The translations under genes and the position numbers were made by a program. From the NCBI RefSeq assembly GCF_900129195.1, contig NZ_FQUY01000011.1, positions 1 to 64,000 on the forward strand: a DNA stretch of 64,000 nucleotides, written 5' to 3'. The stretch's first letter is position 1. Every line of letters starts with the position of its first letter. Origin of the DNA: Desulforamulus putei DSM 12395. Lineage in GTDB: Bacteria > Bacillota > Desulfotomaculia > Desulfotomaculales > Desulfotomaculaceae. Below the pieces are notes generated by a model. It was not told the DNA's origin. It saw only the letters and a list, made by a program, of their open reading frames with translations, and searched no databases. Below, piece by piece: positions 3,246 through 44,396 of this stretch.

Positions 3246-4223
3246 TTATCCTCCTATCTGGCTCATCACCCTGCGGTCCGTCCAACCGTCTTGCATGTGG
3301 TGCCGGCCAGGCTTGTGTCGAATAGCCTTCGCCATTAATGCCGCCAGTTCCTGTCTGCCGGCGCCGTTTCTTAAAGGGGTCTTCAGGTCAAATTCCTGGT
3401 TGCCGTACAGACAGGGACGAAGCTGCCCGTTGGCGGTCAGGCGCAGGCGGTTGCAGCTGCCGCAAAAATGTTCGCTGATGGCGGTAATAAAACCAATGGT
3501 TCCCCTGGCGCCGGGCAACCGGTAATATTTGGCCGGTCCGCTGCCGGTCACCTTGATTTGTGTCTCCAGGGGACCGAACTCCTGCTGCAAGCGCTGTATA
3601 ATTTCTTCGGCGGAAATAAAATTCCCCACCGCCCAGGGGTTGCATTCTCCGATGGGCATTAATTCGATAAATCGAATATGCAGCGGCATTTCCCTGCTTA
3701 AACGGGCAAAATCCGCAAACTCCCCATCATTGACCCCCCGGACCGCCACAACGTTTAATTTTACCGGATGAAGCTCAAGTTCCAATGCTTTCCGGATGCC
3801 CCGCCAGACATCATCAAATTTTCCCACCCGGGTAATATCCTTAAAATTTTCAGGCACCAGGCTGTCCAAACTGAAGTTAACCCGTTTTAAACCGGCTTTC
3901 TTTAAATCCTCTGCCATGTCTGCAAACAGCACCCCGTTGGTGGTGATGGAGAGATCATCAATGGCAGGGTTGGCAGAAATTGCTTGAAACAACTCCAAGA
4001 TATTTTTCCTCACCAGCGGTTCACCGCCGGTAATGCGAATTTTCCGAATGCCGATGTCCGATGCCGCATCCACCACCCGGCTGATTTCTTCCAGGCTTAA
4101 TATTTCCCAGTGGGGGGTTTGTTTCACCCCTTCCGGGGGCATGCAGTACACACAGCGCAAATTGCACCGGTCGGTCACGGATATGCGGAGGTAATTGATA
4201 TTTCTTTTATAATCATCCATCAT
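3246..4223 (-). CDS. moaA: GTP 3',8-cyclase MoaA (radical SAM)
   Basis: MoaA converts GTP to 3',8-cyclo-GTP using two 4Fe-4S clusters. The N-terminal radical-SAM cluster motif CNLRCVYC (CxxxCxxC) is present near residue 20, and the C-terminal cluster cysteines are seen in [18 protein letters not shown]. The protein ends in Gly-Gly, as active MoaA does; that tail enters the active site. Length (325) is normal. The gene begins two bases after the tupC stop, with AGGGGGC as ribosome site; two adjacent ATG codons make the exact first residue uncertain by one. Confidence 0.95.
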
Positions 4224-4225
4224 TT

Positions 4226-4990
4226 TTAATGCCCCCTTTTTTGAGAAATGAGAAGTGGCATCTCACTTCTAAACGGTACCCACTGGAGCAGTCTTGCCAC
4301 GGCCTGGTTTTTGGGACGCTCATAAATTTGCCGGGGCGTACCGGTTTGAATGATTCGTCCCTGGTCTAACACCGCCAACCGGTGAGCCAGGTATGGGATC
4401 TCTGCATAATCATGGGTAACAAACAAGGTCGCCATTTTCGTTCCTTGCAGCAATTTTGCCATGTCTAACAGCAGTTGTCCCCGGGTGGGGCTATCCAGAC
4501 CTGTAAAAGGTTCATCCAAAAACAACACTTCCGGCTCCAGGGCCAGGGCCCGGGCAATGCTGACCCGCTGGGCCTCCCCACCGGAGAGAAAACGAACAGG
4601 GCCATCGGCCAGGTGTTGGATATCCAGTTTTTCCAGCCACAACGCCACCCGCCGGTCAATTTCTTTTTTGGCTACCTTGCGTAACCGGAGACCTGTTTCT
4701 ATATTTTCGCGCACTGTCATGTCCAACAACAGGGGTTGTTGAAACACAAAGGCCATCCTTTTCCGTAATGGCAGCAGGTTTTTTTTACCGGCGGGCTCCC
4801 CTTTAAACAGCACCTGCCCGGAGGTTGGCTGTTGCAGCAGAGCCAGGATTTGCATGAAAGAGGTTTTTCCCGCCCCGTTGACACCGATGAGGGCCGTCAC
4901 TTCACCTTCACGCAAAGTGAAAGTGTCAATATCCAGAATCCTTCTGCCATTTTTAATAAACTTGATATCCTTTGCTTCTAAAACAACCAC
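4226..4990 (-). CDS. tupC: tungstate ABC transporter ATP-binding protein TupC
   Basis: A 254-residue ABC ATPase: Walker A GVNGAGKTS, Q-loop in VFQQPLLLDMTV, signature LSGGEAQR, Walker B VLFLDEP and the H-loop FVTHD. The short length and pairing with a TupB-like permease inside an operon for a tungstoenzyme indicate tungstate rather than molybdate uptake. It starts immediately after the permease stop (coordinates abut). The call of tungstate specificity is inference from context; sequence alone would allow molybdate or sulfate. Confidence 0.8.
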   Translation of the reverse strand: MVVLEAKDIKFIKNGRRILDIDTFTLREGEVTALIGVNGAGKTSFMQILALLQQPTSGQVLFKGEPAGKKNLLPLRKRMAFVFQQPLLLDMTVRENIETGLRLRKVAKKEIDRRVALWLEKLDIQHLADGPVRFLSGGEAQRVSIARALALEPEVLFLDEPFTGLDSPTRGQLLLDMAKLLQGTKMATLFVTHDYAEIPYLAHRLAVLDQGRIIQTGTPRQIYERPKNQAVARLLQWVPFRSEMPLLISQKRGH

Positions 4991-23389: not shown

Positions 23390-23648
23390 CATTCTCCCCC
23401 CTTGTTTCTGGTTTGGGTAAACCCACAGCCAAGCAACAGGGGCATGGTGATTGTTCTCCCTGCCTGGCAGCCCGGCTGTCATAGCATTGGTTGCATTAGA
23501 CCCGTGGCTTTGCGTCCTTAGCTTTCGCCAAGTTTGCCTTTTTCAGTGGTTATAGAGTTATTATAAAGCAAATTCTTCTTAATGTGATAATATTTTCCTT
23601 TTACGGTGATGGGTAGGGAGAAGGCCCGGCAGAATCCGGATCTTCAGG

Positions 23649-25409
23649 TTAAACATAATTTCTTCCGATACTGGCCATAGCGGCGCCGATATTGAGCAGT
23701 TGATCATAGGTGGCTACAATTTGTTCCAGAGAACTGGTTACCACCTTGATAGCCTTTTCCTGCTCCATGATCATGATACTGTCTTCTCGCAAACGCGCTA
23801 AAACACTGGCAATATCCTCAAAGGCCTTGGTGGCCTTTTCGGACTGGAGCTTGCTTTGGGCGGCAATTTTTCTAATCTCTTCAATATCCGAAGAGGCCAG
23901 GGGCTGTTGGGGTAAAGCATCGTCTTCCATGGGTAATTGATACTGAGAGACCATTAGCAAGACCTTGTTGGCCAATTCCAGGGTGTCCTTGGCGATGGTG
24001 TTGGTTTCCTTAATCAAGGCCTCTAGTTGTTGGTTCCTGCTGTTTATTTTAGATGTGGTGCCCTTGAGGGTAAGGGTCGAAAAATTAATGGATTCCATAG
24101 AAAGCATTAATTTATTGCTCATATCCATCAGGCTGTTGGTCAAGGCGGGAACCTGTCTTAACAGGAAGGGCAAGCACATTTCCTTTTCAGCCATCCCCTG
24201 CAGGCATGCCACAGCCTTTTCCCAGCAGGTATCATAACCACAGGCGCTGCAGTTAATGAGATCTCTGATGTTATGTTTGCCGGTTTCTTTCAGGGTTTGC
24301 CAGACCTGTTCCTCCGTGAAAGTTTTCTTCAAGACCGGCCTGGCTTTGAATGTTCTTGTGAAATCCAACTTCTCCAGTACCGGCTGCATCTCTTCGTTAC
24401 AAACGGAATGATTACTTTGATTAACGGTTTTCGCCACCTGATGAGACCTTACCACATAGGACTTATCACTGACCACCCCCGGCCCCATGACACAGCCTTC
24501 GCAAACCAGCATATCAACAAACCTGGGGGTGAAATCTCCGCTGTCAATGGCCTTTAGGACTTCGATGCAGCGCCGGGCCCCTTCAACCACTACGATGTCC
24601 ATGCTGGTGATATCCTCAAACATGCCGGCAGTTTTTAAAAGGCCGCCGCTGATGGGGAAGGTACGGGCTATATGCGGCTGCGGGTTGTCCCATGGCTGTT
24701 CTGCCAGTTGCCGCCAATCAATCTCTGACCTGTCAAACCAGTGGTTGAGCTGCCTGAAAGTAATCACCGCGTCAACATATCCCTCTGTGTTAGGGTCTGT
24801 GGACTCGTACTTTTTAGAAAAACACGGGCCGATAAAAACAACTTTAGAGTCCGGTTGAACGGCTTTCATAACCTTGGCCTGGATTAACATGGGCGAATCG
24901 ATGGGAGCAAGGTTTTCGATTAGGTTTGGAAAGTGTTTTTCCACCAGTTGAACAACCGCAGGGCAAGCGGTTGAAATCATGGTTTTGACGTTCTGCCCAC
25001 TGAAATATTTTGCATACTCTCTGGCACAAATTCCAGCGCCGTAGGCCACTTCCTGTACACTGGAAAACCCCAAGCGACGGAGTGCGGCAACCAGTTGACC
25101 GCCTTTTAATTGAAAGGAAGCCGGGTAAGACGGCGCAACCATTGCAAGTACCCTGGTTCCCTCGGACAACCACTTTTGAATCATGGGAGTATCGTCCTGA
25201 ACTATTTTCGCGCCTATTGAACATGCCAGTACACACTGCCCGCATCCCAAACATCCAGCCTCTACAATTTCCGGCAGGCCGTTTTTAATTGAAATGGTCT
25301 TAACAGGGCAGGCCCTTACACAGGCATAACACTTGCGGCAATTGTCATGATCAGTGGTTATTAATGCAATAATGATCACCCCCCGGGCATCAAACAAGGA
25401 GTTATACAA
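23649..25409 (-). CDS. [FeFe]-hydrogenase-like iron-sulfur protein, probably a sensor
   Basis: 586 residues. Two ferredoxin-type 4Fe-4S motifs come first (CRKCYACVRACP and CLGCGQCVLACS, about 24-66), then a hydrogenase H-cluster-like domain (about 85-370), a further four-Cys Fe-S motif (CSACGYDTCWEKAVAC), and a long alpha-helical coiled-coil C-terminus (about 430-586) like a chemoreceptor or signalling rod. The H-cluster motifs are altered: STACPAV in place of TSCCPxW, GPCFSKK in place of MPCxxK, and VCEGCVMGPG with C-x2-C in place of C-x3-C. The proton-transfer Cys is missing, so hydrogen catalysis is unlikely. No membrane span. Start is unsure: TTG 25409 or GTG 25379. Confidence 0.8.
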   Translation of the reverse strand: MYNSLFDARGVIIIALITTDHDNCRKCYACVRACPVKTISIKNGLPEIVEAGCLGCGQCVLACSIGAKIVQDDTPMIQKWLSEGTRVLAMVAPSYPASFQLKGGQLVAALRRLGFSSVQEVAYGAGICAREYAKYFSGQNVKTMISTACPAVVQLVEKHFPNLIENLAPIDSPMLIQAKVMKAVQPDSKVVFIGPCFSKKYESTDPNTEGYVDAVITFRQLNHWFDRSEIDWRQLAEQPWDNPQPHIARTFPISGGLLKTAGMFEDITSMDIVVVEGARRCIEVLKAIDSGDFTPRFVDMLVCEGCVMGPGVVSDKSYVVRSHQVAKTVNQSNHSVCNEEMQPVLEKLDFTRTFKARPVLKKTFTEEQVWQTLKETGKHNIRDLINCSACGYDTCWEKAVACLQGMAEKEMCLPFLLRQVPALTNSLMDMSNKLMLSMESINFSTLTLKGTTSKINSRNQQLEALIKETNTIAKDTLELANKVLLMVSQYQLPMEDDALPQQPLASSDIEEIRKIAAQSKLQSEKATKAFEDIASVLARLREDSIMIMEQEKAIKVVTSSLEQIVATYDQLLNIGAAMASIGRNYV

Positions 25410-26419: not shown

Positions 26420-26611
26420 TTTATAGTAAGATTTTGGGGAATGATCAGAGTGCGACAAACCGAACTTAGCAGAAGTTATTCTTAGGAAGCAATAGATAAA
26501 TAACAATATTTGTAACCAATCCCCGCTGGCAAGCCAAATTGCTTAAAATTTACCCAATATGTGTTGACACTTTGGCTTGTATATTCTATATTTTATATTA
26601 AGTGAATAGTT

Positions 26612-26775
26612 TTCTTCGTTAGGTGAGGCTTCTACATAGACAGATGCCACTGCCCGGAAATGTCGAGAGACTCTAACGGGTTAACAGGTACTACCGGCTT
26701 AAGGTTTTACCTAATGTGGCTGGGGCACATGTCCCTAGCTATGTATGTGCTAAAGCTTGTACGAGAGGAGAAGGC
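26612..26775 (+). promoter_or_regulatory. M-box (ykoK) magnesium riboswitch
   Basis: The leader matches the M-box consensus at the conserved blocks: GTTAGGTGAGGCTTCTACATA, then CCACTGCCCGGAAATGTCGAGAGAC, GGGTTAACAGGTA, CCTAATGTGGCTGGGGC, and GCTAAAGCTTGTACGAGAGGAG at the 3' side. Binding of Mg2+ folds the aptamer and favours the terminator at 26805-26831, shutting off corA. The GAGAAGG segment just 3' of the aptamer can pair with the CCTTC arm of the terminator, forming the likely antiterminator. Confidence 0.92.
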
Positions 26776-26804
26776 CTGAGTGCCCTTTTACGGGTGTTTT
26801 TATG

Positions 26805-26856: not shown

Positions 26857-26964
26857 ATGGATGATCCGTATCCTGGGGATTTACCAAAAATACTATTCTT
26901 TCATTCTTACCCATTTGGCCCCCTTTGCCAAATGACAGCGCTCATTGGAGGTGAATGCCGATGA
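26857..26964 (+). CDS. upstream ORF (35 aa leader peptide) coupled to corA
   Basis: A 35-codon frame starts at ATG 26857 with an excellent ribosome site (GGGAGGTGG, 7 bases upstream), lies after the riboswitch terminator, and stops with TGA 26962-26964 that overlaps the ATG of corA at 26961 (ATGA). The peptide begins MDDPYPGDLPKILFF and is rich in Pro and aromatics. The overlap and the strong initiation site suggest translational coupling; a regulatory leader role, comparable to mgtL/corL of enterobacteria, is inference. Confidence 0.6.
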   Translation: MDDPYPGDLPKILFFHSYPFGPLCQMTALIGGECR

Positions 26965-27929
26965 TTAAGACCTATCTTTATGACCATACTGAAAAGAAAA
27001 TGCGTCATGACATCAGTCTGGACAACTTGCACCAGGTACTGGCCCATAAAGAAAACCTGCTGTGGGTGGACCTGTATAACTTCTCCGAGCAGGAATTAAA
27101 ATATGTGGCCAACGCCTTTGGCTTTCACGAACTGGCAGTGGAGGACTGCATGCACTACAGCCCCCGGGCCAAGTTGGACAAATACGACGATTATCATTTT
27201 CTGGTGATCCACGCCATACGCTATAACGAAGAACGGGACGAAGAAATTATGTTGGTGCAGCTCAACATTTTTCTGGGTGAAAACTATGTGGTAACCGTTC
27301 ATAAAAACACCCTGCCCAGTCTGGGCAGGATGGCAAAAATCTGCCTGACAGACACCAAGGTGTCCAATAAAGGTAAAGACTTTTTTCTTTACTCCATTAT
27401 CGACGGTTTGGTGGATGAATACTTTCCGGTACTGGACCGAATCGGCGATCGTATTGAAGACCTGGAAGATGAAATTTACGAAAAGCCCAGCCGAGAGACC
27501 ACCGATGAGTTCCTGGCCCTCAAGAGAACCATTTTAACCATGCGCCGGGCCATCACTCCCCAGCGCAAGATCTTTTACAACATCAGCAGCAGCTCCTTTG
27601 CCATCAGTGAGGACAACCAGCCCTACTACCTGGACTTGAAGGACCATCTGGAGCGGATTTCCGACACCATTGACGGTTATAAGGACTTGGTGGACGGCGC
27701 CCTGGCCACCTATTCTTCTATTATCAGCGCCCGGACCAACGAGACCATGCGGGTTTTAACGGTGATTTCTACGATCTTCATGCCCTTAACCTTTGTGACC
27801 GGTTTTTTTGGTATGAATGTTCCTTTACCGGACCAGGATTCCGTATGGTCCACCGTGAGCATTACCATAGGTTTGATTTTGGTTTCCATGTGGATGATTG
27901 TGATTTTTCGCCAAAAGAAATGGATGTAA
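26961..27929 (+). CDS. corA: magnesium/cobalt transporter CorA
   Basis: CorA forms a pentameric Mg2+ channel in the inner membrane. The 322-residue protein has the long cytosolic domain, a first membrane helix ending in the invariant GMN signature (FFGMNVP) near the C-terminus and a second helix (SVSITIGLILVSMWMIVIF), then a basic tail. I choose ATG 26961 because GGAGG is 9 bases upstream; ATG 26955 is only 3 bases from it. Expression is controlled by the M-box riboswitch and probably by the coupled upstream ORF. Confidence 0.95.
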   Translation: MIKTYLYDHTEKKMRHDISLDNLHQVLAHKENLLWVDLYNFSEQELKYVANAFGFHELAVEDCMHYSPRAKLDKYDDYHFLVIHAIRYNEERDEEIMLVQLNIFLGENYVVTVHKNTLPSLGRMAKICLTDTKVSNKGKDFFLYSIIDGLVDEYFPVLDRIGDRIEDLEDEIYEKPSRETTDEFLALKRTILTMRRAITPQRKIFYNISSSSFAISEDNQPYYLDLKDHLERISDTIDGYKDLVDGALATYSSIISARTNETMRVLTVISTIFMPLTFVTGFFGMNVPLPDQDSVWSTVSITIGLILVSMWMIVIFRQKKWM

Positions 27930-30031: not shown

Positions 30032-30859
30032 TTATCCATTTTTTCCAAATTGTACCTGGGCGGATGATAAAACTCCTTTAAGCTGCCTGGTTAAACCGGC
30101 CACGGATTGTAAACTGTCCTCTCCCTGCTCCTCCACCAATCGGACCAGGGCGCTTCCCACCACCACACCGTCACAGTACCGTGCCACCGCTGCTGCTTGA
30201 TCCGTTGTGGCAATACCAAACCCCGCCACAATGGGCAGGTCCGTAAACTCCCTGACCTGGCCGGCAAGCCGGGCGATCTCGCCGGTGACGTCCTGCCGGG
30301 TACCGGTGATGCCTGTTACGGTGACACAGTAAATAAATCCCCGGGCGGCGGCGGTGATCTTGGCCAAACGGTGCCTGTTGCTGGTGGGGGCCGCCAGGGG
30401 AATCAACGCCAAACCCACCTTGTCTGCCTCGGTGATCAGGGGACCGGCCTCCTCTACGGGCAAGTCCGGTATAATCAGACCCGCCACCCCGGCCCGGGCG
30501 GCATCGGCACAAAAAGCGTTAAGACCGTATTGCAGGATGGGGTTGTAATAGGACATCAAAACCAGCGGGGTTTTTACTTTTTCTCTTACCTCTTCCACCA
30601 GCTTTAGAATGCCCGCCGGGTTTGTATGATTCCGGAGAGCCCTGGTGGAAGCCCGCTGGATCACCGGCCCGTCGGCCGACGGATCGGAAAAGGGAACTCC
30701 CAGTTCAATGATGTCGGCCCCGGCCCGGTCCATGGCTAAAACCAGCCGGCCGGTGGTTTGCATGTCAGGGTCGCCGGCGGTAATATACGTCACCAGAGCC
30801 TTTTCGCTCCGCTTTTTTAACAGGGCAAATTTCTCTGCCAACTGCTGAACTCCGGTCAT
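30032..30859 (-). CDS. trpA: tryptophan synthase alpha subunit
   Basis: Splits indole-3-glycerol phosphate to indole, which passes through the tunnel to TrpB. The TIM-barrel motifs are complete: [28 protein letters not shown] (catalytic Glu and Asp), [17 protein letters not shown] and VAGFGI. ATG 30859 overlaps the trpB stop by 4 bp (ATGA); an in-frame extension to 31027 lies inside trpB. Normal length, 275 residues. Last gene of the operon. Confidence 0.96.
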
Positions 30860-32046
30860 CCTAAATCCACCCCCATTTCTCTGGCCACGGTATGCACGTC
30901 TTTGTCTCCCCGGCCCGATAAACAAACCAGAATGTTCTGGTGGCTTTCCATTTGCGGGGCCAGTTTTACCGCCTCGGACAGGGCATGGGAACTCTCCAGG
31001 GCCGGCAGAATGCCCTCGGTGCGGCAAAGCAGGTGAAAGGCCGCCAGAGCCTCCTGGTCGGTGGCAACGGCGTAGTGTACCCTTCCGTTATCCTTTAAAT
31101 AACTGTGTTCCGGACCTACACCCGGGTAGTCCAACCCGGCCGATATGGAATGAACCGGCGTAACCTGGCCGTACCGATCCTGCACCAGGTAGCTGTAAGA
31201 CCCGTGCAGCACCCCCGGCCGGCCGGCATTTAAAGGAGCGGCGTGTTTCCCGGATGATAGTCCCAGTCCACCGGCCTCCACCCCCACCAGCTTTACATCG
31301 GCATCCTCTAAAAAGGCGTGAAAGATCCCCATGGAGTTGCTTCCGCCGCCCACACAGGCCACCACACAGTGGGGCAGGGCGCCGGTTTGTTCCAGCATTT
31401 GCCGCCTAGCTTCCCGTCCTATGACAGCTTGAAAATCCCTTACCATCATGGGATAAGGATGGGGGCCGGCCACCGAACCAATGACATAAAAGGTATCCCG
31501 CACATTGGTTACCCAATCCCGCATGGCTTCATTCATGGCGTCCTTCAGAGTGCCGCTGCCGGAACAAACCTCCACCACCTCGGCTCCCAGCAGGCGCATG
31601 CGGAACACGTTCAGGGACTGGCGCTCCGTATCTTCTTTTCCCATATACACCACACATTTCATACCCAGCATGGCGGCTACCGTAGCGGTGGCCACCCCGT
31701 GCTGGCCGGCCCCGGTTTCCGCTACAATACGTTGTTTACCCATACGGCGGGCCAGCAGCAGTTGACCGATGGTGTTGTTTATCTTATGGGCGCCGGTATG
31801 GTTCAGGTCTTCCCGTTTGAGAAAGATGCGGGCTCCCCCGATTTGCCTGCTGAGGGCTGCGGCGAAATAGACCGGGGAGGGGCGTCCCACGTAGTGATGC
31901 AAGTAGTACTCTACTTCTCTTTGGAAATCATCGTCTTGCCGGGCTTTCTGGTAGGCCTCTATGAGTTCCTCCAGGGCCGGCATCAGGGTCTCGGGAACAA
32001 AGGTCCCCCCGTAGGCCCCAAAATATCCTCTGCTATCCGGCTGCAT
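30856..32046 (-). CDS. trpB: tryptophan synthase beta subunit
   Basis: PLP enzyme joining indole and serine. The PLP lysine motif [15 protein letters not shown] and phosphate-binding GGGSNSMG are present, and the N-terminus ([22 protein letters not shown]) marks the TrpB1 type that pairs with TrpA. The start is ATG 32046 after GGGAGGTG; the frame continues to 32067. It overlaps trpF by 14 bp. 396 residues, normal. Confidence 0.96.
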
Positions 32047-32677
32047 ATGCGGACACCTCCCTGGCACGTTTAATAAAGGCTTTTATAAGCTGCAAATCCT
32101 TTTGCCCGTTGACCTCCACCCCGCTGGAAACATCCACCCCGTAGGGGCGCACCAGGGCCACTGCCCGCCCAACGTTGGCCGGGTTCAGTCCCCCGGCCAG
32201 GATTAAAGGCGCTTTCAGGGGCAAGTTCTCCAGCAGTCGCCAGTTGAAGGGCTGACCGGTACCACCGGCCACACCTTCTAAGTAAGTATCCACCAGCAGG
32301 GCGGCCACAGGGTAGATGCTGGCCTGTTCCAGGGTCTGCCGGTTCCGGGCGGGTACCGCTTTGATGCAGCGCAGGCCCAGTTCCCGGCAGTAGTCCGGGC
32401 TTTCCCGGCCGTGCAGCTGCACCAGGTCCAGCCCGCAGTAGTGGGCGATCTGACGCACCTCTGCCGCCGGAGTATCCACAAAGACCCCCACCCGGGCAAC
32501 CAGCGGGGGGATGGCCTGGCAGATGGCACGGGCCTGCTCGGGGGTCACCTGACGCCTGCCGGGGGCAAAGACCATGCCGATGGCATCTGCCCCGGCCAGA
32601 GCTGCGGTTTCAGCAATCCGGGGATCCCGGACGCCGCAAATTTTTATGCGGACGGTATTAACTTGCAATGCAGCCAC
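32033..32677 (-). CDS. trpF: phosphoribosylanthranilate isomerase
   Basis: Amadori rearrangement of phosphoribosylanthranilate. The N-terminal KICGVRD carries the catalytic Cys and the [13 protein letters not shown] block the phosphate site; the catalytic Asp lies in [11 protein letters not shown]. 214 residues. Overlaps trpC by 20 bp and trpB by 14 bp. The first codon may be GTG 32677 or TTG 32668; the latter is better spaced from GGAGG. Confidence 0.95.
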
Positions 32678-33455
32678 CTCCCCCTGCCAATTCCCTTACT
32701 TTGCACCCAATGTCCCGGGCGGTCACCAGGGCCTCTCCCACCAAAGCGGCATGAACTCCCAGGCTGTTAAGGAACTGTATATGCTCCCGGTTGTGAATAC
32801 CGCTTTCACTGACAACCGTAATACCTGGCCCGTTGATCAATCCCATCAGAGTACCGGTAGTGACCAGGTCGGTATCAAAGGTATGCAGGTTGCGGTTGTT
32901 GATACCGATGATTTCGGCCCCTGCTTGCAGTACTCTCATTAGTTCTTCCTGTGTATGCACCTCCACCAGAGCCTGCAGACCCAGGTCTTCAGCCAATGCC
33001 AGCAATTGGGTCAGTTCCTCATCGGAAAGGACGGCGGCAATCAGTAAAACGGCATCGGCACCGGCCAGCCTGCTCTGGTAAAGCTGCAACGGGTCCATGA
33101 TAAAGTCTTTGCGCAGCAGGGGAAGCTCGGTTTCCTGACGCACCTCCTCCAGGTAGGCCAGGTGCCCGCGAAAAAACGGGGCATCGGTGAGGACAGAGAT
33201 GGCGGCAGCCCCGTTTTCACTGTAAATGCGGGCCAACCGGCGGTGATCAAAGTCAGGGCAAAGAATCCCTTTGGAAGGAGAAGCTTTCTTAATCTCCGCT
33301 ATCAGGCTTACGCTGCCGGGCAAACCGATGGCTTTCTTAAAATCCCTGGCCGGCGGTAACTTGGTGATTTGCCGTGCCATGTCTCTCAGATCGGAGGTCC
33401 TTTTTAATTTCTCAACTTCTTGCTTCTTGCTTTCGATGATCCTTTGTAAAATCAA
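32658..33455 (-). CDS. trpC: indole-3-glycerol phosphate synthase
   Basis: Closes the indole ring. Active-site blocks are seen in order: IAEIKKASPSKG, LTDAPFFRGHLAYL, LRKDFIMDPLQLYQ, VEVHTQEEL, GINNRNLHTF and VSESGI. 265 residues, normal. It overlaps the trpD stop by 4 bp, typical of coupled translation. Confidence 0.96.
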   Translation of the reverse strand: MILQRIIESKKQEVEKLKRTSDLRDMARQITKLPPARDFKKAIGLPGSVSLIAEIKKASPSKGILCPDFDHRRLARIYSENGAAAISVLTDAPFFRGHLAYLEEVRQETELPLLRKDFIMDPLQLYQSRLAGADAVLLIAAVLSDEELTQLLALAEDLGLQALVEVHTQEELMRVLQAGAEIIGINNRNLHTFDTDLVTTGTLMGLINGPGITVVSESGIHNREHIQFLNSLGVHAALVGEALVTARDIGCKVRELAGGGGCIAS

Positions 33456-34489
33456 AGCGCCGCCGTCCTTTCCCTGACCAGAGTCTGCGAAAACTCCACC
33501 AGCTGTTTTAACTTCTTCCGGGCGCTGCCCGAGTCGATGACATCCTGAGCCAGCCTGACGCCGGTGGCAATGTCCCGGGCCATCCCCCCTGCCACCAGGC
33601 CTAGGGCTGCGTTTATGACCACCACATCCCTCTGGGGTCCGGGAGCGCCGTCTAAGATATTTTGGATCATTCTGGCGTTCTTCTTGGCATCCCCACCGGC
33701 CAGGGCCGCGATGGGAGCCCGTGCAAGTCCAAAATCAAGGGGATCCAGGGAGATCTGTTTAACCTCGTTCCCCCTTACCTCATAGACCAGGGCCTCCCCG
33801 GCCAGGGACACTTCGTCCAGGCCGCCGCAGCCGTGGATCACAAAGGACCTCCCGGTGCCCAAATTGGCCAGAACCCGGGCCATGACCGGGGCGAGATCGG
33901 CACAGTAGACTCCCAGTACCTGGTTCCGGGCAAAGGCGGGATTGGTCAGGGGACCCAGGACATTAAAAACAGTCCGAATGCCGATTTCTTTTCTGGGACC
34001 TGCGGCATACTTCATGGCCCCGTGCAGCAACGGCGCATAGAGAAAGGTAATTCCCACCTTATCAAGACACAATCCCGCTTCTTCCGGGGTCAGGTTTACG
34101 GCCACACCCAAGTGCTCCAGCACATCGGCGCTGCCGCACTTGCTGGAAACCGATCGGTTGCCGTGTTTGGCCACCGGCAAACCGGCCCCGGCCAGTACCA
34201 GCGCACAGGCAGTGGAAATGTTAAAGGTGTTGGCGCCGTCCCCGCCTGTGCCGCAGGTATCCACCAGGCCGGTTCGCGAGGTTTTAACCGGGGTCACCTT
34301 TTCCCGCATGGTGCGGGCAAAACCGGTAATTTCCGCCGCCGTTTCTCCCTTCAGGTGCAGGGCTGTCAGCAAACAGGCAATTTGCGCCGGGGTGGCCCGG
34401 CCTTCCATGATTTCCTTCATGGTATCCCGGGCTTCCGCCTCGGACAGGTCTTCTCCCGTCACCACTTTCTTAATGGCTTCAGTGATCAC
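33452..34489 (-). CDS. trpD: anthranilate phosphoribosyltransferase
   Basis: Transfers phosphoribose from PRPP to anthranilate. Recognised from VDTCGTGGDGANTFNISTA (PRPP/diphosphate loop), KHGNRSVSSKCGSADVLE and the FLYAPLLHGAMKY segment. 345 residues, complete. Its ATG lies about 30 bp after the trpG stop. Confidence 0.96.
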   Translation of the reverse strand: MITEAIKKVVTGEDLSEAEARDTMKEIMEGRATPAQIACLLTALHLKGETAAEITGFARTMREKVTPVKTSRTGLVDTCGTGGDGANTFNISTACALVLAGAGLPVAKHGNRSVSSKCGSADVLEHLGVAVNLTPEEAGLCLDKVGITFLYAPLLHGAMKYAAGPRKEIGIRTVFNVLGPLTNPAFARNQVLGVYCADLAPVMARVLANLGTGRSFVIHGCGGLDEVSLAGEALVYEVRGNEVKQISLDPLDFGLARAPIAALAGGDAKKNARMIQNILDGAPGPQRDVVVINAALGLVAGGMARDIATGVRLAQDVIDSGSARKKLKQLVEFSQTLVRERTAAL

Positions 34490-34519
34490 TCTTCTCTCCT
34501 CCTTCTCAACTCAACTCAT

Positions 34520-35089
34520 TTATGAACACTGCTGAAGAAAATTTCTCAGCAGGGCTTTCCCCTGGGTGGTGGCAATGGACTCGGGGTGAAACTGAACTCC
34601 CTCCACCGGGTAATGTAGATGACGGATTCCCATCACCTCCCCTTCCGGCGTTTTGGCAGTTACTTTAAGGCAGGAGGGCAATGTCTCTTCCTCCACCGCC
34701 AGCGAATGGTAGCGGGTGGCTGTAAAGGACCGGGGAAGATCCTTGTAAAGCCCGCAGCCATCGTGCAGGATGATGGACGTCTTGCCGTGCATCAGGCGAC
34801 CGGCCGCAATGATCTTACCTCCCAGGGCCTGGGCAATGGTTTGATGTCCCAGGCAAACGCCCAGAATGGGTATTTTATCATGCAGCTGCCGCACGGCTTC
34901 CAGGCAGATGCCGGCCTGTTCCGGTCTGCCAGGCCCCGGCGAGAGAATCAAACCGGTCACACCCTCAGCCAACAATTCTGCCGGTGTAATGGCATCATTG
35001 CGATAAACCCTGACTTCCTGCCCCAGCTCCCTGACCAACTGAACAAGGTTATAGGTAAAGGAATCATAATTATCGATCACGGCCAGCAC
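34520..35089 (-). CDS. trpG: anthranilate synthase glutamine amidotransferase subunit
   Basis: Class I amidotransferase that supplies ammonia to TrpE. Catalytic Cys in PILGVCLGHQ and His/Glu in GVQFHPESI. Starts at GTG 35089 (VLAVIDNYDSFTYNLVQ) with AAGGGGGGAG upstream; the open frame to 35341 lies within trpE. 189 residues; overlaps trpE by 20 bp. In some Firmicutes the gene also serves folate synthesis; no pab gene is here. Confidence 0.95.
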   Translation of the reverse strand: MLAVIDNYDSFTYNLVQLVRELGQEVRVYRNDAITPAELLAEGVTGLILSPGPGRPEQAGICLEAVRQLHDKIPILGVCLGHQTIAQALGGKIIAAGRLMHGKTSIILHDGCGLYKDLPRSFTATRYHSLAVEEETLPSCLKVTAKTPEGEVMGIRHLHYPVEGVQFHPESIATTQGKALLRNFLQQCS

Positions 35090-36593
35090 GGGAGCTCCCC
35101 CCTTCCTTTTCTGATACTGCCAGGACAGCCGCTGCCATGGCCCTGGCCTTGTGCAGGGATTCTTCGTATTCCCTGGCGGGGTCGGAATCTGCCACAATCC
35201 CCGCCCCTGCCTGCAAGTAAGCTCTCCCGCCGTGCAGCACGGCGGTGCGAATGGTGATGGCGGTATCCATATTGCCGGCAAAATCAAGATAACCCACCGC
35301 TCCGGCATAAAGCCCCCGGCGTAAGGGCTCCAATTCTTCAATGATTTCCATGGCCCTTATTTTGGGCGCCCCGGAGACCGTACCCGCAGGGAAGCAGGCA
35401 GCCAGCACGTCCAGGTTGGTTTTACCTACCTCCAGTGTTCCCGTTACCTCCGAAACCAGGTGCATGACATGGGAGTAACGTTCCACCTTCATAAAATACG
35501 GCACTGCAACGGTTCCCGGGATACAGACCCTGCCCAGATCATTGCGCCCCAGGTCCACCAGCATCAGGTGTTCCGCCCTTTCCTTTTCGTCCTCCAGCAA
35601 CTCCGCCGCCAGTTTGACATCCTCGGCGGCATCCTTGCCCCGGGGTCTGGTGCCGGCAATGGGGCGGGTAAACACCCTTTCCCCTTCCACCCGTACCAGC
35701 ATTTCCGGGGAAGCCCCCACCACCGCCAGGTCTCCGAAATTTAAGTAAAAGAGATAGGGTGAAGGATTAATGGACCGCAGCCTGCGGTAGAGATCAAAGG
35801 GGGCGCCGGCAAAGGGAAGGCTGAACCTCTGGGATAACACCACCTGAAAAATGTCCCCGGCACGGATATATTCTAATGCCCGGCTGACAGCAGCTTCAAA
35901 CTGGTTGCGGCTTAAAGAGGAATGCTCTTTTAAATACTGGTTTAACAGGTCTTTGGGATAGGGTACGGAGCCGCTCAGAGGGTAAATTACCGGGGTGCCT
36001 TGAGGCGAAAAAATTTGTTCCGCCACCTGCTCAATCTTTTTTACAGCCTCCCGGTAGGTCTCTGCCGGGTGGCCGGACAAAGGAAGATTGGCCACCACCA
36101 ACAGTGTGCGGCGGACATGGTCAAAGGCCAGCACCATTCCCGGAAACATCAACTGGCAAAGGGGCAGACCCAGGTCATCCTGTTTAAATTCAGGTAGACG
36201 TTCCAGGAAACGCACCAGGTCGTAGCCAAAAAACCCCACGCCGCCGGAGGTAAAGCGGGGCATATCCGGCAGTACAGGGGTTTGGAACCTGCTCAACAGG
36301 CCCCCCAGCGCCTTTAGCGGACTACCATGCAGCTTGGCCCGGCCCGCAGTTCCCCAGTATTCCCCCTGGTTACGAAAACGAAAGTTTAGAAAACAATCCA
36401 TTCCTATAAATGAGTACCGTGCCAGTGTCGTCCCACCTTCTACGCTTTCCAACAGGAAGCTGGGTCCCCGGGGAGACAACTTATGATAGATGGACACGGG
36501 AGTTTCGGTATCCGCCAGGTATTCACGGCAGACCGGAATGAGGTTATATTCCTCCGATAATGAGCAATATTCTTCAAGGGAGGGGTAGTACAA
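35070..36593 (-). CDS. trpE: anthranilate synthase component I
   Basis: Makes anthranilate from chorismate. The feedback-binding LLESVEGG motif near residue 50 indicates tryptophan inhibition. The C-terminal chorismate domain is complete (IRAGDIFQVVLSQRF, RPIAGTRPRG, DLGRNDLGRV, FPAGTVSGAPKIRAMEII). 507 residues. TTG start 36593 is preceded by AGGAGGTGATT. First gene of trpEGDCFBA; its leader contains a TRAP-type attenuator. Confidence 0.96.
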   Translation of the reverse strand: MYYPSLEEYCSLSEEYNLIPVCREYLADTETPVSIYHKLSPRGPSFLLESVEGGTTLARYSFIGMDCFLNFRFRNQGEYWGTAGRAKLHGSPLKALGGLLSRFQTPVLPDMPRFTSGGVGFFGYDLVRFLERLPEFKQDDLGLPLCQLMFPGMVLAFDHVRRTLLVVANLPLSGHPAETYREAVKKIEQVAEQIFSPQGTPVIYPLSGSVPYPKDLLNQYLKEHSSLSRNQFEAAVSRALEYIRAGDIFQVVLSQRFSLPFAGAPFDLYRRLRSINPSPYLFYLNFGDLAVVGASPEMLVRVEGERVFTRPIAGTRPRGKDAAEDVKLAAELLEDEKERAEHLMLVDLGRNDLGRVCIPGTVAVPYFMKVERYSHVMHLVSEVTGTLEVGKTNLDVLAACFPAGTVSGAPKIRAMEIIEELEPLRRGLYAGAVGYLDFAGNMDTAITIRTAVLHGGRAYLQAGAGIVADSDPAREYEESLHKARAMAAAVLAVSEKEGGSSRAGRDR

Positions 36594-36675
36594 GAAAAAT
36601 CACCTCCTACTTTTTTATAAAATCCACTTGCCGTACCCCTTGGCGCCGGGCAGATGCCTTCTCTCTGGAAATAAA

Positions 36676-36712
36676 AACAAAAAAACCGGCAGCTCGAAAG
36701 GGAGCACCGGTT
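36676..36712 (-). terminator. trp operon attenuator (leader terminator)
   Basis: On the minus strand AACCGG-GCTC pairs with GAGC-CCGGTT around a short loop, followed by seven T. Its 5' arm (GCTCC) can instead pair with GGAGC within the upstream (G/U)AG array, giving an antiterminator that TRAP binding would prevent. Confidence 0.85.
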
Positions 36713-36723
36713 TCTAAACAGAC

Positions 36724-36817
36724 CTATCCCGCTCACTTTTCTCAGCTCCTCTCAACTCTGCTCTGCTATTTAACTAAGATCAACTCAACTAATCTATGCT
36801 AACTACCAATTAGACTA
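36724..36817 (-). promoter_or_regulatory. TRAP-binding site array in the trp leader
   Basis: Reading the minus strand there are 15 GAG or TAG triplets in 94 bases, most separated by two bases, for example TAG-CA-TAG-AT-TAG-TT-GAG and GAG-CA-GAG-TT-GAG-AG-GAG-CT-GAG. This is the known binding pattern of TRAP, which wraps 11 such triplets round its ring when loaded with tryptophan. The first one or two may fall within the promoter: TTGACT (about 36837-36842) with an extended -10-like TGTTAGTCT. MtrB is encoded at 44163-44396. No other feature was seen in the 36820-36951 gap. Confidence 0.9.
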
Positions 36818-36951
36818 ACACAAAAGAAGTGTCCCAGTCAATGATTATTTGACAGAAAATGAAAACTTGTTGTTAAAGAAGGAATTATGGTGATGGCTGC
36901 ATAAACTATCATATAAAATCAGATTGAACATCAGAAAGGTGGCTATTTACG

Positions 36952-37185
36952 TTGTCAGGCAAGAATTTATCGGTAAAGCTCTTTGAACCTTACCCCGTCG
37001 GCGATCTGGTGGTCTATATAACCGGCCCGGACCGGGGGTCTGTGGTGGAAGCGGACTGTCGTTGGGAGTTAACCACCACCCTGAACAGTTGCGACTGCTG
37101 TACCTTCCGCTGGCGCTCCCGCCGCGATCCCTCTTTTAAATGCCGTCATATTTTAGCATTGCGGCAGGTTTTAGGTCTGGAATAG
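36952..37185 (+). CDS. small SWIM-like zinc-finger protein
   Basis: 77 residues with four possible zinc ligands as CDCC and CRH (CDCCTFRWRSRRDPSFKCRHILAL), the CxC-xn-CxH pattern of SWIM domains, which bind DNA or proteins. The N-terminal part (LFEPYPVGDLVVYITGPDRG) is not recognised. Start TTG 36952 follows GAAAGGTGG. It is divergent from the trp operon, sharing its promoter region. A part in trp control would be a guess. Confidence 0.6.
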   Translation: MSGKNLSVKLFEPYPVGDLVVYITGPDRGSVVEADCRWELTTTLNSCDCCTFRWRSRRDPSFKCRHILALRQVLGLE

Positions 37186-44162: not shown

Positions 44163-44396
44163 TTAATCGGTATCCGTACGGATCTTTCCGTGCTTGGTTA
44201 ACAGTTCCGCCCGTCCCCGGATCTTGATGGCCGAGGTGTGTTCGGTGAACTGAGCAATCATGATTTCCCCTTTATCAAGCTTTTCCGAGTGATGAAATTT
44301 AGTCACGCCGCCTCTGGTTAAACCAATGATGGTGACGCCGTTTTCCAACGCCTTCACCACAACATAATCACCGGCTATATCAAATCTGTTCGTCAT
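44163..44396 (-). CDS. mtrB: trp RNA-binding attenuation protein (TRAP)
   Basis: 77 residues with the TRAP core almost unchanged from Bacillus: [44 protein letters not shown]. These hold the tryptophan-binding Thr/His residues and the RNA-binding Lys of SEKLDKG and Lys/Arg of AIKIRG. TRAP forms an 11-subunit ring that, with tryptophan, binds GAG/UAG repeats and ends trp transcription; such repeats precede trpE in this window. Start ATG 44396 after GGGGTG (GTG 44405 is possible). It stands alone with its own promoter and terminator, unlike Bacillus, where it is paired with mtrA. Confidence 0.95.

Follow-up and report, generated by a model that had tools for sequence, protein, structure and literature searches.

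The trp operon and its promoter

The window, that is the whole stretch of 64,000 nucleotides of Desulforamulus putei DNA that was analysed, contains a trp operon with the gene order E-G-D-C-F-B-A. The operon is encoded on the minus strand, as are all elements of the trpE leader described below, and their coordinates are given on the plus-strand ruler. The first gene, trpE (35070..36593; PF00425 and PF04715), encodes anthranilate synthase component I and is preceded by the Shine-Dalgarno sequence AGGAGG at 36603..36608, identified by reading the sequence. It is followed by trpG (34520..35104), which encodes anthranilate synthase component II (TIGR00566, above cut-off) and for which the start codon is provisional. 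The part of the operon from trpD to trpA spans 30032..34489 and consists of open reading frames named from translations that were recognised by eye: trpD (33452-34489), trpC (32658-33455), trpF (32033-32677), trpB (30856-32067) and trpA (30032 to about 30860). Divergent from trpE, on the plus strand, is a small open reading frame of 77 aa (36952-37185) with a CDCC...CRH motif, which is found at the equivalent place in six other genomes of the genus with 78-91% identity. Compared with Pfam it matched nothing above cut-off, the SWIM zinc finger being a faint resemblance (E 0.39). Elsewhere in the window are an M-box magnesium riboswitch (26608-26776, plus strand, 146 bits) that precedes a gene for a CorA-family transporter (26955-27929), and a c-di-GMP-I-GGC riboswitch (23462-23547, minus strand, 75.9 bits) with an iron-only hydrogenase-like gene (23649-25409) on its upstream side and, on its downstream side, a short open reading frame that starts near 23390.

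The predicted promoter of the operon (36812..36841) is composed of the -35 element TTGACT (36841-36836), an 18-nt spacer and the -10 element TAGTCT (36817-36812), with a TG one base ahead of the -10. It was not listed by a generic promoter scan, in which the single site reported, at 36912-36884, was weak and no more frequent than in shuffles. Since the pattern TTGACN-N(17-18)-TGNTANNNT could be read at the equivalent place in all eight leaders of the genus, transcription is predicted to start near 36805.

The triplet array and terminator of the trpE leader

The predicted TRAP binding array (36741..36805, 65 nt) begins at about +1 of this predicted transcript and consists of 12 (G/U)AG triplets starting at 36805, 36801, 36796, 36791, 36786, 36776, 36768, 36763, 36758, 36753, 36748 and 36743. 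On the minus strand, from 36805 to 36741, it reads TAG T TAG CA TAG AT TAG TT GAG TTGATCT TAG TTAAA TAG CA GAG CA GAG TT GAG AG GAG CT GAG, so that the spacers are 1-2 nt save for two longer ones at mid-array, of 7 and 5 nt. Equivalents were found in all eight genus leaders, in which 12-13 triplets per 80 nt were counted, a density that was reached by none of 200 shuffles.

The array is real and far above chance. The strict pattern of five KAG-NN repeats was matched twice in the window, both times within the trpE array, while none were expected from 100 shuffles. The maximum for any 66-nt stretch of the window, counted without overlap, was the 12 triplets from 36805; the second-ranking separate cluster had 7 (34517, over the trpD Shine-Dalgarno) and the rest of the window at most 6. 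Control patterns with reversed or altered triplets reached a maximum of 9 with both strands counted; this is a loose control, some of the maxima possibly arising from the same GAG-rich array. GAG-rich tracts do occur elsewhere, for example around ribosome-binding sites, and the array could be viewed as one more purine-rich tract produced by chance or composition, trpE being controlled instead by, for instance, a T-box, a leader peptide or a repressor. This view is scarcely credible given the zero expectation in shuffles and the position of the array, which is conserved in eight members of the genus and across the order. Furthermore, Rfam scans of the window and of the trpE leader matched no TRAP or trp-leader model, and the leader itself had no match of any kind at the gathering score, with chance hits only below cut-off.

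The first-pass annotation had described 15 GAG/UAG triplets, mostly with 2-base spacing. The array is there, on the minus strand, which that annotation had left unstated, but the number has to be revised. From 36817 to 36714 there are 16 non-overlapping (G/T)AG triplets, separated by 15 spacers, of which 8 have a length of exactly 2 nt. The first triplet (36817-36815) is inside the predicted -10 and is probably not transcribed. The last three (36734, 36726 and 36716, within 36714..36734) follow spacers of 6, 5 and 7 nt, are out of phase and have no phased equivalent kept in the genus, and it is probable that they are incidental or belong to a competing RNA structure. The core of the trpE array is 11-12 triplets, not 15. 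In the genus leaders the conserved part often consists of a block of five triplets and, after a TTAAA linker, a block of six or seven (5 + 6 in G005, for example), and since such an arrangement offers about 11 sites, one 11-mer TRAP ring should be enough for the trpE leader. The suggestion that an excess over 11 sites would allow overlapping registers or two rings is therefore not supported for trpE. It could draw on the 16 triplets between 36817 and 36714, and on the report that B. subtilis TRAP needs only 7 or more repeats for stable RNA binding (PMC4027176), but about 22 sites would have to be available for two full rings, the core is about 11-12 triplets throughout the genus, and the surplus lies in the promoter or out of phase. 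Two rings or sliding registers on this leader, dropped after the genus leaders were compared, are thus very improbable.

Downstream of the array is an intrinsic terminator, the putative attenuator (36673..36714), which is predicted to form a hairpin from 36714 to 36682 followed by a U tract (-17.5 kcal/mol). For comparison, 30 trpE loci were taken from relatives and 26 were analysed for terminators; L066, L067 and L075 were left out as truncated or misplaced and so uninformative, and L056 was excluded for having its densest measured stretch far upstream. A terminator follows the array at the same place in all 26 leaders, and CUC, the complement of GAG, is found within the 5' arm or the loop of the terminator in 23 of them.

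It had also been proposed that the 5' arm of this terminator can pair with the array. The terminator itself was confirmed, but for the pairing the two predictions diverge. When the transcript is ended before the 3' arm of the terminator, pairing is predicted between the triplets at the end of the array, UUGAGAGGAGC, and the 5' side of the terminator, GCUCCCUUUCGAG, yet in a duplex test the complementarity between array and 5' arm in the window's trpE leader did not exceed that of shuffles (z -0.25). Across the 26 leaders the same test against shuffles gave a mean z of -1.38, with negative values in 20. A weak GU-rich hairpin is also predicted between the array and the terminator of the window's leader. 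Short hairpins between array and terminator, differing in sequence, are predicted in the trpE leaders L046, L049, L050, L052 and L053, and one example from G001 is GUUAUAAA...UUUAUAAC.

From these predictions it is likely that a hairpin (antiterminator) switch would operate at trpE. It could also be that the array binds TRAP and that the bound ring acts mainly by releasing RNA polymerase directly or by controlling trpE translation, the hairpin switch being secondary. The TRAP of B. subtilis can bring about termination with the attenuator hairpin mutated or removed altogether (PMC3913778), and in the window the position of the array at the predicted 5' end would bring the TRAP ring close behind the polymerase; the failure of the antiterminator pairing to exceed shuffles in this leader points the same way. 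However, all 26 leaders have a strong terminator after the array, and in 23 its 5' arm or loop contains CUC, which fits a hairpin switch, and we regard the alternative as unlikely, noting that polymerase release and a hairpin switch are not mutually exclusive.

MtrB and the distribution of TRAP

The mtrB gene (44163..44396, minus strand) is located 7.6 kb from trpE and is single-copy, being the sole match in the genome. Its product scored 134.2 bits against PF02081 (cut-off 21.3) and 137.5 bits against the NCBIfam equivalog model NF009724 (cut-off 117). The contact residues of MtrB were judged by alignment to the TRAP of solved structure 1c9s, to which it aligns without gaps over 67 residues, and to six relatives. 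In the seven-species alignment K39, K58, R60, E38 and D41, together with T27, T32, H36, Q49 and T51 (window numbering), are invariant. We take these residues to correspond to the known RNA contacts (KKR, E and D) and tryptophan contacts, the roles of which belong to established knowledge of TRAP. The initial identification of mtrB as encoding a well-conserved TRAP is therefore upheld by both the profile scores and the contact residues. Whether TRAP assembles as an 11-mer or a 12-mer is decided by C-terminal residues (PMC3435397).

In B. subtilis, TRAP has a partner regulator, anti-TRAP (rtpA), for which no gene had been seen in the window. A search of the whole D. putei genome gave no match to anti-TRAP (PF15777) at E <= 0.001, although it did pick up the B. 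subtilis control. Weak anti-TRAP matches in relatives were mostly in open frames of about 380 residues and are presumably DnaJ zinc fingers.

The locus had been presented as a TRAP attenuator outside the Bacillaceae with its regulator in the same window. TRAP-controlled attenuation of trpE, with mtrB in the same window, is well supported, but its place outside the Bacillaceae is unremarkable. Of 41 relatives, 38 have TRAP, always as a single copy, and in an even sample of 299 genomes from the phylum it was present in 152. In a scan of named genomes at least 581 confirmed TRAP stretches were obtained, the best 80 of which include Carboxydothermus, Pelotomaculum, Desulfotruncus, Moorella, Heliorestis, Alicyclobacillus and Paenibacillus. 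As for earlier reports of TRAP in Clostridia, Yanofsky, Merino and colleagues are said to have listed it in Carboxydothermus, Symbiobacterium and a Desulfitobacterium. The occurrence of TRAP outside the Bacillaceae is ordinary, and TRAP is not a speciality of that family.

Arrays were found across the order, and most trpE leaders of other families have dense ones. Among the phylum genomes with trpE, a clear array, defined as at least 9 triplets in 80 nt by a cut-off chosen after the data had been inspected, was present in 12 of 22 TRAP-positive genomes and in none of the 7 TRAP-negative genomes (8 loci); Fisher's test on loci gave p = 0.01 with kinship ignored. About ten TRAP-positive genomes of the phylum are without a clear trpE array, some of them with T-box-like sequence, and the presence of TRAP alone is therefore no proof of trpE control. 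One trpE leader, L070 of G013, has a phased array of 10 triplets, with no TRAP match in the G013 genome; since the genus mate G038 has TRAP, an assembly gap in G013 is likely.

Further TRAP-type arrays and the proposed control

When the whole genome was searched with the array pattern, four places besides trpE were found, namely the trpD site, the leader of a TrpP-type gene and two sites before a permease gene. The trpD site is a second TRAP-type array of 6-7 triplets (34489..34517, minus strand; GAGTTGAGTTGAGAAGGAGGAGAGAAGAG) covering the trpD Shine-Dalgarno, and its motif GAGNNGAGAAGGAGGAGAGNNGAG, or a close form, is present in all eight genus loci. In B. subtilis, TRAP blocks ribosome binding at trpG, trpP and ycbK (PMC11255114, PMC4347634). 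By analogy, the trpD array probably serves translational repression by TRAP, although the in-operon target of such control would be trpD in D. putei rather than trpG as in B. subtilis.

As in B. subtilis, a TrpP-family gene is among the predicted targets. It encodes the S component of an ECF transporter (L044 3101-3670, G000:C31, minus strand; PF17099, 57 bits), is accompanied by its own ATPases and T component, and heads the ECF transporter operon. Since its leader (L044 about 3670-3850, minus strand) has a TRAP-type array and a terminator, it is probably under attenuation, unlike B. subtilis trpP, which is controlled at translation. Comparable leaders were found in the other members of the genus that possess the TrpP-type gene.

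The remaining two arrays are successive, each followed by a terminator-like hairpin (L045 about 4111-4340, equivalent to G000:C34:51111-51340, plus strand), and precede an APC-family amino-acid permease gene (L045 4346-5755); this locus is outside the window. The first contains about 10-11 triplets and the second 8-11. Orthologues of the permease in G001 (L119) and G005 (L120), which are 89% identical, have the same two-unit layout, while the leader in G002 (L121) apparently has one unit, giving a tandem layout in three of the four species with the gene. More distant permease paralogues had no arrays in their leaders. Tandem riboswitches and tandem T-boxes likewise have a sensing element with its terminator twice over in the same leader; the permease leader differs from them in using TRAP-type arrays. 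The leader may be a tandem TRAP attenuator giving a tighter or steeper response to tryptophan, or its arrays may be two halves (about 5 + 6), with a terminator between them, that a single ring bridges; as the second cluster in G001 and G005 has only about six triplets, two ring sites and one bridging ring are both possible. We put this forward tentatively, with slightly less than even confidence, and since each hairpin is short, with four to six pairs, the tandem reading should be taken as a lead and not as a result. No report of tandem TRAP attenuators or of a bridging ring was found in the open-access literature that was searched.

Taken together, the trpEGDCFBA operon is very probably under a TRAP-dependent transcription attenuator. 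The parts of this attenuator are present and conserved, and it is supported by an array far above chance, a nearby single-copy TRAP with invariant contact residues, terminators in every leader analysed, the negative mean pairing z over those leaders, and arrays that tend to go with TRAP in the phylum. Control by TRAP is further supported by the arrays at tryptophan-related genes (the TrpP-type ECF transporter and trpD), for which the permease paralogues lacking arrays provide an internal control. The binding of TRAP, its dependence on tryptophan and the switch itself are proposed by analogy with the B. subtilis system. When tryptophan is plentiful, a Trp-loaded MtrB ring would bind the approximately eleven (G/U)AG triplets that directly follow the promoter and wrap the nascent RNA around itself, so that the array could no longer pair with the hairpin's 5' arm and the terminator would form ahead of trpE. 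When tryptophan is scarce, the free array would enter the competing pairing and the operon would be transcribed. In addition, trpD is probably repressed at translation through the shorter array over its ribosome-binding site.

The trpE system belongs to a known kind and TRAP is common in its lineage, but its architecture shows some differences. It shares with the trpEDCFBA leader of B. subtilis the use of TRAP, an array of about 11 (G/U)AG triplets with mostly 2-nt spacers, a downstream terminator and trpE as the first gene. In the B. subtilis leader the first repeats are from about +32 (PMC4027176) and a 5' stem-loop has been mapped before the array (PMC3913778), whereas in the genus the arrays start about 0-17 nt from the predicted start. 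With the array right at the predicted 5' end or close to it, hardly any space or none is left for such a stem-loop, which is an accessory and not a defining feature in B. subtilis; none was found in the stretch before the array, which given the predicted start is at most about 17 nt. The window's array also differs in its two longer mid-array spacers (7 and 5 nt), its terminator is richer in G+C, and D. putei has trpG inside the operon and a ribosome-binding-site array at trpD.

If the permease is indeed preceded by a tandem attenuator, this suggests that its substrate is tryptophan or another aromatic amino acid. D. putei adds a clear case of TRAP control, and the searches of the phylum indicate that TRAP is common in these lineages. 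It also offers testable differences from the textbook system, namely the array at or near the 5' end, no anti-TRAP, the conserved site at the trpD start, the probable control of the TrpP-type gene by attenuation and not at translation, and the possible tandem attenuator of the permease.
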